A stretch of DNA of 31,458 nucleotides from positions 1 through 31,458 of IMG/VR virus record IMGVR_UViG_3300034061_001534. The stretch is one strand, 5' to 3'. Position numbers and translations under genes: made by a program. Below the pieces are notes generated by a model, which made no database searches, had not been told where the DNA came from, and saw only the letters and a program-made list of their open reading frames with translations. Source of the DNA: a virus. Of the stretch, positions 3,996 through 14,398 are shown piece after piece (position 1 is the stretch's first letter; each line of letters begins with the position of its first letter).

Positions 3996-5294
3996 CTAAC
4001 CGACAACATATTGTCCGTAACTTGGATTGAGTTCGAAGTACATACGCATCATTATCGCGTCTGCAACGTCTGGACTTATTCCTTCGCGGTTCTTGATTAC
4101 GTCCTTCGGTGTGACTTGCAACTTTCCGTCTACGTCCGCGCGATGTCGCTTAATCATTTCAAGCTCACGAATGATTTGTTCTTTGCGCGTACTGGATAAA
4201 ATTGTGACTTTGTTTTCTTCGACGTATTGAGCCAATTTGTAATAACATTCGCTCTTTAAGTTTTGGTATTGTGGGTGTTTTGGTTTAGATCCATTCTGAA
4301 ATCCTAAGCACTTCAAAAAGTCACAGACTCCTCCGCCCACCCCATCTTCATCCGCGATGATGTTTTGAAGTAATATGTTGTGTTCTTTGGCTACAACGCG
4401 AATCTTGTTCACTACTTCGTCCAACGCTGCACGATTGAGTTCAATTATATCAATGATAGTTAATCCTTCCCAAACAATAATAATCGTTCTATCCTTTCCA
4501 AAACGCGCAATGTCGGCTGTGATATACTTCTTTCCTTCATTGATTACTTCGTTTCTAAACATTCGAAGTAAATTCTCCGTGTTGAATAGTTTGTCGCTGT
4601 CGTCGTCAAACTCCCAATTGCCTTCGAGCAGACGTTTGCGGTCATACTCTGGAAGTTTCTGTAAGTTCTCTAAATACGTCTGCGAAATGTACGGGTTATC
4701 GGTTGGTAACGCTTGAACAAAGGCGCGGTCATTTCTCAATTCACCTTTTAGATTAGCGTAGTAGAAGTCATTATACAACCAACCTTTTGAAGGGTTACAA
4801 GTCATTAATCCCTTCGGTCTGTCGTTAATCAATTTGTAACGTACACGGCTTTGCAAGATGTCAATACAACGCTTTGAAACTTCGGCTACCTCATCTACGA
4901 AGAAATCTGTGATTTCAATCGATCCAAATCTCTGAAAATCAACATCTGAGGGCATATCCGCCAAGTCCATTAATATCGTTTGACTTCCGTTGTACCACTT
5001 AATAACGTGGTCTTGTCCGTTGTATGTGTAGTGAACGTTTGGTTTTAATCCGTGTAAGGTGCAAAGTTCAAAGAATGTTTGCATCGTTGACAAGCGCAAC
5101 TTCTTCAATTCAGCACGACCGATTAAACCCTTCGTACCGGGATACTTCAATCGTCTTTTTATCTGCCAATCGCAACCGAGAAAAGACTTTCCACTAAACA
5201 CACCGCCACCATACAATACCTGCGCAATGGGGCTGTCTATTGAAAGTAATTCCAACGCGTATTTTTGTTTGTCGTGGTAAATTATTTCGGGCAT
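3996..5294 (-). CDS. terL: Terminase large subunit (TerL), packaging ATPase and nuclease
   Basis: 432 aa, normal length for TerL. The ATPase domain has Walker A GGGVFSGKS (29-37) and Walker B FFVDE (131-135, catalytic E135). The C-terminal RNase H-like nuclease shows Asp261 in ADIARFGKD, Asp315 in IADEDGVGGG, and a last acidic site in SPDVADAI near the C-terminus. It docks on the portal, pumps DNA into the prohead and cuts the concatemer. It lies on the minus strand in the early/replication block, far from the portal and from the candidate small subunit at 14096, which is unusual because the terminase and portal genes normally sit together. The previous gene's stop overlaps its ATG by one base. 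Confidence 0.95.
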   Translation of the reverse strand: MPEIIYHDKQKYALELLSIDSPIAQVLYGGGVFSGKSFLGCDWQIKRRLKYPGTKGLIGRAELKKLRLSTMQTFFELCTLHGLKPNVHYTYNGQDHVIKWYNGSQTILMDLADMPSDVDFQRFGSIEITDFFVDEVAEVSKRCIDILQSRVRYKLINDRPKGLMTCNPSKGWLYNDFYYANLKGELRNDRAFVQALPTDNPYISQTYLENLQKLPEYDRKRLLEGNWEFDDDSDKLFNTENLLRMFRNEVINEGKKYITADIARFGKDRTIIIVWEGLTIIDIIELNRAALDEVVNKIRVVAKEHNILLQNIIADEDGVGGGVCDFLKCLGFQNGSKPKHPQYQNLKSECYYKLAQYVEENKVTILSSTRKEQIIRELEMIKRHRADVDGKLQVTPKDVIKNREGISPDVADAIMMRMYFELNPSYGQYVVG

Positions 5295-11004: not shown

Positions 11005-11171
11005 CACCAAAAGAAAAAGCAGTTGAATTGTTTAATAAATTTGGACGTGATGCTTCAAACAAAGTAGATGGCATGTTAAAAAACATGTCTTTTACCTTTG
11101 GGTTTATAGGTTATTCAAGCTATGTATATTGGAAAGAAGTTAAACAAGAAATAGAACAACTTGACACTTGA
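11001..11171 (+). CDS. Small hypothetical protein, 56 aa
   Basis: Begins MTPKEKAVELFNKFG and ends KQEIEQLDT. The opening MTPKEKAxELxxKF and a WKEVKQEIE segment recur in many short Bacteroidota phage proteins with no assigned role. A central hydrophobic/aromatic stretch (FTFGFIGYSSYVYW) may be a short amphipathic or membrane-touching helix. Coupled by overlaps to the nuclease before it and to the sigma-like gene after it. Confidence 0.7.
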   Translation: MTPKEKAVELFNKFGRDASNKVDGMLKNMSFTFGFIGYSSYVYWKEVKQEIEQLDT

Positions 11172-11664
11172 CCACTACATAGAAGGAAGGTACAAACACT
11201 TCAAAGAGTTAGCGTACAATATCGCTCGTAAGGAACCATTTTACGAGGACTTGTTGCACGACTCTTTACTTTCTATGTTTGGCTCAAAGCATATCGAGAA
11301 CTTAATTGACACAGGCGACTTTGAATTTTATCTTATTCGTGTAATGTATTTGTCCGTTAACAGTCCAACCTCACCTTTTTATAAACAAACGATAGCGTGG
11401 AACAGAAACCGACGCGACTTCAAAGAGTACGCACACGAAATCGACAAGACTTGGCTAGGCGCAAGAATGACCAACGAGCAACTGGATATTCTAATTAGTC
11501 GTCTAAGCGAATTTGAAAGGCTTATATTTCAAGAATATATTTTCGAAGGCTTTACCTACCGAGAACTTTCCAAACAAACAGGAATACCAATGCCATTCCT
11601 TTACCGCACCATAGATAATATCAAACAAAAAATAAGAGCAAATGTTATTCGCAAAGTCAAATGA
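11161..11664 (+). CDS. Sigma-70-like transcription factor (regions 2 and 4)
   Basis: 167 aa, read from TTG at 11161, because no ATG occurs before residue 40; the start lies in an 11-nt overlap with the previous gene. The N-terminal half (about 10-40) looks like sigma region 2 helices. The C-terminal part carries a helix-turn-helix (132-157: TYRELSKQTGIPMPFLYRTIDNIK) typical of region 4, with its recognition helix after TGIP. It may redirect host RNA polymerase to phage middle or late promoters, or be a regulator that uses only the HTH. It follows the nuclease in the first rightward operon. Confidence 0.6.
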   Translation: MTLDHYIEGRYKHFKELAYNIARKEPFYEDLLHDSLLSMFGSKHIENLIDTGDFEFYLIRVMYLSVNSPTSPFYKQTIAWNRNRRDFKEYAHEIDKTWLGARMTNEQLDILISRLSEFERLIFQEYIFEGFTYRELSKQTGIPMPFLYRTIDNIKQKIRANVIRKVK

Positions 11665-12082
11665 GTACAAACGCAGGTTAGAAATCTGTCGCACCTGTAA
11701 ATTCTTCGAATCTGCAACGCAGTCTTGTGGACCATTGATCGTGGGCGACGAAGTAGAAACCGAAGTCTTATTCCGTCGCAAGTCAATCAAACTTTGTGGC
11801 TGTGTAATGCCGATAAAAGCAAAGTTAGCGTTCGCTTCTTGTCCAGCGTCTAAATGGGACGGTGTTCTTTCAATGGAAGAACAAATCGAGTTCAAACGAT
11901 TCTTGCTCGATATGAAAGCGCAAGGACGTTTAGAGCAGAAAGATATGCTTCGCTTCTATTCATTCAAAGACAAGGCTACAGGAGCATTCAACGAGCGTTC
12001 TACGTGTCCGCCCTGCGTGAAGAAAGACATTAATACGTTTCTTGAATCAATGAAGGACGTAAATGTAGATTTCAACAATTAA
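11642..12082 (+). CDS. Cys-rich zinc-binding protein
   Basis: 146 aa. Cysteines come in groups: C16/C19 (CRTC), C29, C52/C54 (CGC), C67, and a STCPPC group near residue 123, enough for two or more zinc sites. The region after CGC (MPIKAKLAFASCPASKW) is a pattern I recall from uncharacterised Bacteroidota phage proteins next to sigma-like genes. The rest is charged helix. It overlaps the sigma-like gene by 23 nt, so the two may work together in transcription control. A strong terminator follows 72 nt after its stop. Confidence 0.6.
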   Translation: MLFAKSNEYKRRLEICRTCKFFESATQSCGPLIVGDEVETEVLFRRKSIKLCGCVMPIKAKLAFASCPASKWDGVLSMEEQIEFKRFLLDMKAQGRLEQKDMLRFYSFKDKATGAFNERSTCPPCVKKDINTFLESMKDVNVDFNN

Positions 12083-12153
12083 AAATTGAAAACTATTTTA
12101 TAGCTTCAATAAATTTCACTTTATATTCGTGAAGTCAAATGGTATAAAGTATT

Positions 12154-12207
12154 AACCCTCTTTTGTTTCCGTTTGACGACAAGAAACAATTGGGGGTTAT
12201 TTTTTTT
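12154..12207 (+). terminator. Strong intrinsic terminator after the first rightward operon
   Basis: Inverted repeat arms 12154-12169 and 12183-12198 (16 bases, three mismatches; the outer AACCC/GGGTT and the inner TTGTTTC/GAAACAA pair perfectly) are followed by eight T at 12200-12207. This is a textbook rho-independent terminator separating the nuclease/sigma-like operon from the ParB-like and late genes. Confidence 0.85.
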
Positions 12208-12249
12208 GAATAAGAGTAATGAATACACGCGTAATCTGAATAAGAGTAA
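12207..12249. repeat. Two 13-bp direct repeats 30 bp apart
   Basis: The sequence TGAATAAGAGTAA occurs at 12207-12219 and again at 12237-12249. The 30-bp pitch is about three helical turns, so both copies face the same side of the DNA, as expected for a cooperative binding site (operator or iteron). Confidence 0.7.
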
Positions 12250-12512
12250 AAAAGACCTTCGTAAGTCACAGCGAAGTAACCAATGACTACACTTGCAATA
12301 CATCAATGCTTGGAACGAGCAACTGCCCTTTTAAGGGCGAGAGTAATCTTTTTCTTGTTAGAGCGCAGCTTTTTCTTTTATTCTTTCTTTTATAGTGCTT
12401 ACACGTTTTTCTTTCTTTTTTTCTTTTCTTTGCACATTTAAGACAGTCAATAAGTTTAGTGACACAAAAGCAACAACTGAAGTAAATTAGCACAATAATA
12501 TATTTAACTTAT

Positions 12513-13022
12513 ATGAAGACACAAACTGTCAAGATTAACGAAGTAAAGTCAAACCCTAATAACCCTCGTATTATTAAGGACGATAAATTCAAAAAGTTAG
12601 TCGCTTCAATCAAAGAACTTCCACAGATGCTCGAACTACGTCCAATAGTCGTAAATGAAGATATGGTTGTACTGGGTGGTAACATGAGGTTGAAGGCTTG
12701 CAAAGAAGCAGGACTAAAAGAAATACCAATTATCAAAGCATCTGAATTGAATGAAGAACAACAACGCGCCTTTATTATTAAAGACAATGTTGGTTTTGGT
12801 GAATGGGATTGGGACGCGTTAGCTAACGAATGGGACGCAGAACAATTAGCTGAATGGGGTTTAGACGTTCCTAACTTTGACGCTGGAGAATTAGACGATT
12901 TAAGCGAACAAATACAACCTACATTTAGAATCGAAGTTCTTTGCAAAGATGAAGAACATCAAGAAAAAACATATAATAAACTAATAGCCGACGGACACGA
13001 ATGCAAACTTTTGACATTGTAA
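12513..13022 (+). CDS. ParB-like (ParB/Srx fold) nuclease-domain protein
   Basis: 169 aa. The ParB N-terminal domain is clear: NPNNPR (14-19), LRPIVV (42-47) and the box GGNMR (55-59), which replaces the usual GGHRR-type motif. A second part contains FIIKDNVGFGEWDWD and WGLDVP, then an acidic linker and the C-terminal ECKLLTL. This is the phage ParB form that normally goes with DNA-modification genes rather than with ParA partitioning, and no ParA is present. It overlaps the ABC-GNAT gene by 22 nt, so the two are co-translated and likely functionally linked. It could bind DNA, or hydrolyse a nucleotide as ParB/Srx relatives do. Confidence 0.82.
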   Translation: MKTQTVKINEVKSNPNNPRIIKDDKFKKLVASIKELPQMLELRPIVVNEDMVVLGGNMRLKACKEAGLKEIPIIKASELNEEQQRAFIIKDNVGFGEWDWDALANEWDAEQLAEWGLDVPNFDAGELDDLSEQIQPTFRIEVLCKDEEHQEKTYNKLIADGHECKLLTL

Positions 13023-14077
13023 GAAAATCACAACCGAAAAAATCTTTTCGAGTTGCTTCAATAATTGGAAAATTCGATCTTCAATCAGAAGAAGTCGTTG
13101 AACAATTTATAGGTCAATTTGATATTCCAGAACAATGGAACGTCGGACTTATTGTTGGTAAAAGCGGAACAGGTAAAACAACAATAGCAAAAGAGTTATT
13201 TAAAAACGCATACATAACCGACTACACATACACAGCCGATTGTATTCTTGACGATATGCCTTCGGATTGTTCGGTTGAACAAATAACTTCAATGTTCAAT
13301 GCGGTTGGTTTTAGCAGTCCACCAAGTTGGTTGAAACCTTATTCCGCATTAAGCAACGGACAAAAAATGCGCGTGGATCTTGCTCATTCATTACTGTTGA
13401 ATAAAGAACTAATTGTATTCGATGAATTTACTTCTGTCGTAGATAGACAAGTGGCGCAGATAGGATCGTTTGCAGTTCAAAAGGCAATACGTAAACAAGA
13501 TAAAAAGTTTATTGCGGTAACTTGCCACCACGACGTTGAAGATTGGTTATTGCCCGACTGGGTTTTTAATACTGATACAATGACCTTTCATTCATTTGAA
13601 GGGCAAAAAAAAAATAGACCAGAAATTAAATTTGAGATATTCAACACAGCAGATAAAACAATCTGGAAGATGTTTGCTAAGCACCACTATTTAAGTCATT
13701 CACACAACAACGCAGCGTCGGTGTATGTTGCTGTTGTCAATGATCAAATAGCAGGTTTTTTGAGCGTGTTACCTTTTCCTCATCCAAAAGTAAAAGGTGT
13801 TAAAAGAGTTCATCGATTAGTTATTCTTCCAGATTATCAAGGTGCTGGTTTTGGAATTAAATTTTTAGAAGAAATAGGTTTGTTTTACAAAAATCAAAAA
13901 TACAGATATAGAATTACTACAAGTTCGCCAAGTTTGATTTATGCATTAAAAAAATCAAAATTATGGGCTTGTATAGACTTTTCAAGAAAATTACAAAGTA
14001 AAAGTAATTTAATGAATACAAGCATATCTTCAAATCATTCTGCAAATAGAATAACTGGTTCATTTGAACTAAAATAA
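13001..14077 (+). CDS. ABC-type ATPase fused to GNAT acyltransferase
   Basis: 358 aa. The N-terminal ABC ATPase has Walker A GKSGTGKT (53-60), signature LSNGQ (117-121), Walker B LIVFDE (137-142), D-loop SVVD (145-148) and switch His about 176-177, with no membrane domain. After a Lys-rich linker (about 203-210) comes a GNAT domain: HHYLSHS (228-234), a strand VYVAVVNDQIAGFLSV, and the acyl-CoA-binding pattern RLVILPDYQGAGFG (272-285, Q-x-x-G-x-G). Such a fusion could modify DNA bases, in the manner of Mom, another GNAT-fold phage enzyme, or act in defence evasion. An A10 run lies exactly at the domain junction. It overlaps the ParB-like gene, and its 3' end is AT-rich. Confidence 0.85.
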   Translation: MQTFDIVRKSQPKKSFRVASIIGKFDLQSEEVVEQFIGQFDIPEQWNVGLIVGKSGTGKTTIAKELFKNAYITDYTYTADCILDDMPSDCSVEQITSMFNAVGFSSPPSWLKPYSALSNGQKMRVDLAHSLLLNKELIVFDEFTSVVDRQVAQIGSFAVQKAIRKQDKKFIAVTCHHDVEDWLLPDWVFNTDTMTFHSFEGQKKNRPEIKFEIFNTADKTIWKMFAKHHYLSHSHNNAASVYVAVVNDQIAGFLSVLPFPHPKVKGVKRVHRLVILPDYQGAGFGIKFLEEIGLFYKNQKYRYRITTSSPSLIYALKKSKLWACIDFSRKLQSKSNLMNTSISSNHSANRITGSFELK

Positions 14078-14095: not shown

Positions 14096-14398
14096 ATGCC
14101 AAACCCTGAAAATATAGAAAAACATAAATTCAAAAAAGGACAAAGCGGTAATCCAAACGGACGCCCGAAGAAGTTACCACACCTTGAAGAATTACTTGCC
14201 GACATTTTAGGCGAAGACAAAGAAGGAATAACAGCAGCGGAAGCAATACTTCGAGCGTTACGGGCAAAGGCGACGAAGGGCGATATACGCGCTGCGGAAG
14301 TATTACTTGAACGCGCTTATGGAAAAGCTAAGCAAGGTATCGAGCTAAGCGGTCCAAACAGCGAACCGATTCAAATAATCATCAACGACAAATTATAA
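14096..14398 (+). CDS. DUF5681-like protein, small terminase candidate
   Basis: 100 aa. The sequence FKKGQSGNPNGRPKK (12-26) is the hallmark of DUF5681 proteins, which are often encoded beside terminases. The central part (ITAAEAILRALRAKATKGDIRAAEVLLER) is a helical, likely DNA-binding or oligomerising domain. It is the best candidate for the small terminase subunit that recognises the packaging site, although TerL lies about 8.8 kb away on the other strand. It begins 18 nt after the ABC-GNAT gene. Confidence 0.6.
   Translation: MPNPENIEKHKFKKGQSGNPNGRPKKLPHLEELLADILGEDKEGITAAEAILRALRAKATKGDIRAAEVLLERAYGKAKQGIELSGPNSEPIQIIINDKL

Follow-up and report, generated by a model that had tools for sequence, protein, structure and literature searches.

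An ABC ATPase–GNAT fusion in an exchangeable, ParB-anchored slot of tailed phages is a probable DNA-base acyltransferase

We analysed a window of 31,458 bases, an IMG/VR virus contig that carries endolysin, terminase, tape-measure and portal genes, and propose that its ABC ATPase–GNAT fusion protein (hereafter ABC-GNAT) is a phage DNA-base acyltransferase encoded in an exchangeable, ParB-anchored modification slot. The probability that we assign to this reading is roughly 0.77. The decisive evidence for the predicted DNA-modification role is partner exchange, as read from the comparison of related loci. Since the slot in the closest relatives holds proven or predicted DNA modifiers, ABC-GNAT very probably modifies phage DNA, and the modification probably serves to shield this DNA from host defences. 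The features of the locus are as follows.

12513–13022, plus strand: ParB-like gene, 169 aa (Pfam ParB_N, E 1.7e-8, 34.8 bits against a cut-off of 26.3)
12513–12869, plus strand: ParB N-domain, residues 1–119, common to all partner types
12870–13022, plus strand: ParB C-terminal tail, with a tendency to move together with the enzyme encoded downstream
12870 to about 14355, no strand assigned: exchanged segment comprising the ParB tail, ABC-GNAT and the 5' part of the DUF5681 gene (BLAST boundaries, windowed identity)
13001–13022, plus strand: overlap of the ParB and ABC-GNAT reading frames, 22 nt
13001–14077, plus strand: ABC ATPase–GNAT fusion gene, 358 aa, ATG start
13001–13627, plus strand: ABC ATPase domain, residues 1–209 (Pfam ABC_tran; Z about 14–15 to ABC ATPases)
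13157–13183, plus strand: Walker A, GKSGTGKTT, residues 53–61 (G53, S55, G56 and K59 invariant in 35 relatives)
13349–13363, plus strand: ABC signature, LSNGQ, residues 117–121 (L117, S118 and G120 invariant)
13412–13447, plus strand: Walker B with the catalytic Glu (IVFDEF, 138–143) and D-loop (SVVDR, 145–149)
13523–13534, plus strand: H-loop, CHHD, residues 175–178 (C175, H176 and D178 invariant)
13619–14077, plus strand: GNAT domain, residues 207–358 (domain-only model; structural matches)
13682–13696, plus strand: HHYLS motif, residues 228–232, candidate acceptor site (H229, Y230 and L231 in 35/35)
13811–13849, plus strand: beta-4 Arg272 and acyl-CoA loop HRLVILPDYQGAG, residues 271–283
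14096–14398, plus strand: DUF5681 gene (Pfam DUF5681, E 4.2e-19), its 5' part inside the exchanged segment

Domains, motifs and fold of ABC-GNAT

The first-pass annotation had described the product of 13001–14077 as an ABC ATPase fused to a GNAT acyltransferase, and this description was confirmed. Pfam detected ABC_tran (E 4.9e-9), Acetyltransf_7 (E 3.6e-7) and Acetyltransf_1 (E 4.6e-6), each above its cut-off, and phrog_11143 (function unknown) matched the full length at E 2.6e-96. A whole-protein AlphaFold2 model based on an alignment with 35 relatives reached a pLDDT of 86.7; its residues 1–209 matched ABC ATPases (Z about 14–15) and its residues 207–358 matched GNATs (Z about 15).

The full set of ABC motifs that the annotation had listed was recovered except for one element. 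The Walker A motif, the signature, the Walker B Glu, the D-loop and the H-loop His176 are conserved, with D141, E142, S145, D148 and R149 invariant in the Walker B/D-loop region of the 35 relatives, whereas the Q-loop Gln is not. Within the Q-loop region, conservation of a polar residue is confined to Asp84 (34 of 35 aligned relatives), which, judging from its position, appears to replace the Gln of transporters. As annotated, no membrane domain was seen in the protein, nor was a coiled coil. These absences, together with the replaced Gln, fit a soluble, non-transporter ABC unit.

A GNAT-only model (pLDDT 88.1) matched 1y9k at Z 14.6 (3.1 Å, 136 residues) and RimI (5isv) at Z 14.1 (2.7 Å, 130 residues), which bears out the expected GNAT match. 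The nearest folds include the protein N-terminal acetyltransferases RimI, Naa50 and Ard1, and structure comparison also matched the domain to CoA-bound GNATs. As modelled, the domain is a canonical acyl-CoA-type acetyltransferase fold, for which acyl transfer itself is predicted. All 35 relatives keep H229, Y230, L231, R272, V274, P277, Q280, G281 and R350, and 34 of them keep G283. The acyl-CoA loop PDYQGxG is thus invariant or nearly so, and it contains the Q/RxxGxG pattern of GNATs.

Linkage to the ParB-like gene

The best PHROG match of the ParB-like gene was phrog_498 (DNA methyltransferase with an N-terminal ParB; E 2e-32), and its best PADLOC match was MTase_II. Membership in a defence system was rejected, the PADLOC matches to ABC or methylase entries being weak.

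The overlap of the two genes is exactly 22 nt, as had been noted (ORFs 12513–13022 and 13001–14077), and within it the ATG of ABC-GNAT sits over the Cys codon of the ParB C-terminal motif EGxxC. The linkage is conserved in relatives, contrary to the outcome that the first-pass annotation had named as refuting its proposal. At 80% identity, a ParB gene was found upstream of ABC-GNAT in 155 of 183 representatives, 9 of which had no room for it (155 of 174 testable). The corresponding numbers were 50 of 63 at 60% identity, with 3 lacking room, and 20 of 29 at 50% identity. The exact 22-nt overlap was present in 73/183, 24/63 and 6/29 representatives at these three levels, and occurred in phages of Firmicutes and in contigs of Bacteroidota, Pseudomonadota, Planctomycetota and Chloroflexi. 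With so many recurrences at 80% identity (73/183), spread over several phyla, the overlap is not a matter of chance.

ParB and ABC-GNAT form a single ORF in two loci, L112 and L157, both from Planctomycetota. Two other apparent long fusions (L140 and L180) gave no ParB match and were rejected as reading frames that merely run on in GC-rich DNA. Split, adjacent genes behind ParB encode ABC and GNAT in phages of Oenococcus, Streptococcus and Lactococcus. In T4-like phages, P12024S and some others, ABC-GNAT occurs but this ParB does not accompany it. The pair often sits just before terminase genes; the large terminase gene of the window lies away from it, at 3996–5294 on the strand opposite to ABC-GNAT.

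Exchange of enzymes behind the ParB N-domain

Two viral scans with single-sequence ParB queries gave 159 loci with a close ParB relative, and the enzyme fused to, or directly after, the ParB N-domain was taken as its partner. The partners were N6/N4 methylase (49), Mom (36), ABC-GNAT (31), TAGT glycosyltransferase (25), m5C methylase (3), DpdA-like TGT (1) and others (11), with 3 loci cut by the contig end; these counts hinge on the relatives returned by the scans, and many of the loci are metagenome contigs. DNA-modification families accounted for 114 of the 125 scorable partners other than ABC-GNAT. When near copies at 95% identity within one label were removed, the counts became 27 for ABC-GNAT, 19 each for Mom and methylase, 12 for TAGT, 2 for m5C, 1 for DpdA and 8 for others. 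Pfam checks of example partners returned TAGT at E 7e-24, C5 methylase at E 1.6e-45 and N6_N4_Mtase at E 1e-34, and the DpdA-like partner (L500) matched a queuine-transglycosylase PHROG at E 1e-59. All 49 fused cases were scored as methylase, 48 by clustering with the checked L499 and L587 by a check of its own. Partners with no Pfam match in L566, L525, L527, L510, L517 and L512 are candidate DNA-modification enzymes.

The exchange is seen at the sequence level between the window and two sister phages (L458 and L460); the swap is documented by these two contigs together with the wider partner survey. Both are collinear with the window at 83–84% nucleotide identity over 11159–12869. The identity breaks off at ParB codon 119 and resumes at 14355 in L458 and at 14423 in L460, and the DNA between is unrelated. 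In place of the exchanged segment, the sisters have a ParB tail and Mom, the two Mom genes being different. The ParB N-domains of the window and L458 are 98% identical, and the ParB tree groups the two as a starred pair. On this tree the ABC-GNAT label switches 18 times; since the tree has few columns, only the minimum of at least 6 changes forced by starred branches is safe.

Among pairs whose ParB N-domains are at least 75% identical, the tails were similar in 96% of ABC-GNAT/ABC-GNAT pairs and 82% of Mom pairs, as against 8% of ABC-GNAT/TAGT and 40% of ABC-GNAT/Mom pairs. By this comparison, the ParB tail tends to follow the enzyme and is not strictly enzyme-specific.

Mom is found with this ParB family in other settings as well. 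In L448, a ParB 71.6% identical to that of the window is followed by Mom (Pfam E 1e-38) and then by terminase genes that resemble those of window relatives. This ParB family was present in the flank of 9 of 33 Mom representatives, nearly always directly upstream. In L410 (2974–4772), Mom precedes ABC-GNAT with a 4-nt overlap. Aeromonas phage AsFcp_1 matches both Mom and ABC-GNAT. A CPxC mini zinc-ribbon-like end is frequent on ParBs upstream of Mom (L102, L394, L421, L427, L435, L441 and L443). In phage Mu, the zinc-finger gene com overlaps mom.

Relation to known systems

PMC7824862 restates the prediction of Iyer et al. 2013 that ABC-GNAT has a role in DNA modification and names Tenacibaculum phage pT24 as an example. 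The window protein belongs to the same family, as tblastn against pT24 gave 34.8% identity at E 3e-43. The idea of a DNA-modification role is thus an already published prediction and not new, and the base acylation is likewise a prediction. What is added here is the conserved 22-nt overlap with ParB and the exchangeable slot, although Iyer et al. 2013 may already mention ParB. The literature searched contained no experiment on the ABC-GNAT family, and within its partial coverage no description of enzyme-cassette exchange behind ParB was found.

The first-pass annotation had proposed DNA modification by analogy with Mom. The role itself is strongly supported by partner exchange, linkage and fusion in the sequences compared, but membership in the Mom family (PF25680) was rejected: Mom was not among the Pfam matches listed, and hhalign gave no significant match (E 0.11 and 0.38). 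The Mom structure 8bv8 was absent from the 50 structural matches listed for the GNAT-only model, which by itself does not speak against a match. The annotation's further ideas, that the ParB-like protein may locate phage DNA and that ABC ATPase cycling may serve as a gate, are hypotheses. Mom of phage Mu belongs by published assignment to the GNAT superfamily, as does the GNAT domain of ABC-GNAT, and the two enzymes have ParB as a common partner and exchange with each other. Unlike ABC-GNAT, Mom has neither a QGxG acyl-CoA loop nor an ABC domain. The signature considered for the Mom family is a His-Tyr after helix 1 and an Arg in strand 4. H58, Y59 and the Arg are invariant in that family, and ABC-GNAT has invariant H229 and Y230 at a like position by sequence and an invariant R272; this putative shared signature is a lead, not proof.

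The phage ParB–DNA methyltransferase fusions (phrog_498; PF02195 and PF01555) contain a close relative of the window's ParB N-domain, but their enzyme is a SAM methylase, unlike ABC-GNAT. DpdB is a ParB-like ATPase that acts with DpdA in DNA modification (PMC12839542). The DpdB/DpdA pair resembles the present one in joining a ParB-family protein to a base-modifying enzyme and provides a precedent for a ParB partner, whereas its deazaguanine chemistry differs; L500 was the one locus here with a DpdA-like partner.

Other neighbours of ABC-GNAT

One ABC-GNAT subfamily is followed by a gene for a formyltransferase-like protein (PF00551), mostly with an overlap of 4–13 nt. The gene occurs in L092:1805-2449, L093:4122-4592 and L096:4107-4721, three seeds in which another residue seems to stand in place of the Asn of N-x-H, and in 40 of the 80 loci L293–L372. 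Its product may act on the transferred group in a further step or provide it. In phage Jace (L084:5101-5526), ABC-GNAT is directly followed by PanD, aspartate 1-decarboxylase (Pfam E 2e-33), a possible link to CoA or beta-alanine supply. An Oenococcus phage encodes an ASCH-domain protein (L082:6151-6531) after the split ABC and GNAT genes; the ASCH protein YqfB hydrolyses N4-acetylcytidine (PMC12707154). In large Pseudomonas and Rhizobium phages, phrog_886 proteins (L087:5968-6849 and L101:5545-6414) are encoded beside ABC and ParB genes. They are labelled ABC transporter, yet gave no ABC match, and a His-Tyr motif early in the sequence is a hint that they may be enzymes of an acyltransferase-like kind.

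Alternative explanations

The GNAT domain might acetylate a host or phage protein, such as RNA polymerase, a restriction enzyme or the terminase, with the ABC part as a regulatory or docking domain. This would agree with its nearest folds, which are protein N-acetyltransferases, with the adjoining terminase genes and with the phage GNAT Rac, which targets RNA polymerase (PMC7552054). We consider it unlikely, since it leaves unexplained why Mom, methylases, glycosyltransferases and a DpdA-like enzyme fill the same ParB slot, and why sister phages replace the segment. A role in modifying RNA or a small molecule, through tRNA acetylation or tRNA-dependent chemistry, is very unlikely. A P-loop ATPase is joined to a GNAT domain in RNA cytidine acetyltransferases, phmmer matched one of these at E 0.23, and tRNA genes occasionally lie nearby (tRNA-Ser in L083, tRNA-Asn in L085). 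However, such genes were near only 5 of the 60 surveyed loci and none was in the window, on which count aminoacyl-tRNA was also rejected as the donor, and the partner exchange points to DNA.

The least probable alternative is a packaging or partition factor, in which ParB and ABC would form a loading clamp on phage DNA and GNAT would merely regulate them. The ParB fold and the small and large terminase genes adjacent in many phages favour it. Against it, the relatives of the window with Mom or methylase do without ABC-GNAT altogether, the catalytic loop of GNAT is fully or almost fully conserved, and the window's own large terminase gene (3996–5294) is elsewhere on the other strand.

Proposed mechanism and implications

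Several points count against the favoured reading, a DNA-base acyltransferase: protein N-terminal acetyltransferases are among the nearest folds, the sequence comparison with Mom is not significant, some phages have ABC-GNAT but not this ParB, the tails are not strictly enzyme-specific, and all contexts were read from sequence, many of them from metagenome contigs. For this reading we propose the following mechanism. Because one ParB N-domain serves chemically unrelated DNA modifiers, it should supply something that all of them need, and it would act as a common DNA-engaging or licensing module, while the enzyme-associated tail would recruit the partner. The ABC domain would dimerise with ATP and may clamp or open the DNA, exposing a base. 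The GNAT domain would then take an acyl group from acyl-CoA, in the simplest case acetyl, and attach it to an exocyclic amine of a base, presumably adenine N6 or cytosine N4, via the His229/Tyr230/Arg272 region. Modification would take place late, the genes lying beside those for packaging, and would guard virion DNA against restriction.

The evidence leans, with less assurance, towards a wider picture. Tailed phages would carry a plug-in slot in which cassettes of a ParB tail and an enzyme are swapped behind the ParB N-domain, the latter being a universal DNA-engaging platform and recombination anchor, so that the chemistry switches between close sisters; the ABC-GNAT cassette would write an acylated base with ATP.

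If this is true, a phage family that is widespread but uncharacterised produces a new acylated base in DNA, and a phage can change the chemistry of its DNA by replacing a single cassette behind a ParB module that stays fixed. The ParB-like genes that are common beside phage terminases would be explained without a partition role, and near-isogenic sister phages would allow DNA chemistry and restriction resistance to be compared. The enzymes behind this ParB would then offer a direct route to new modification enzymes.
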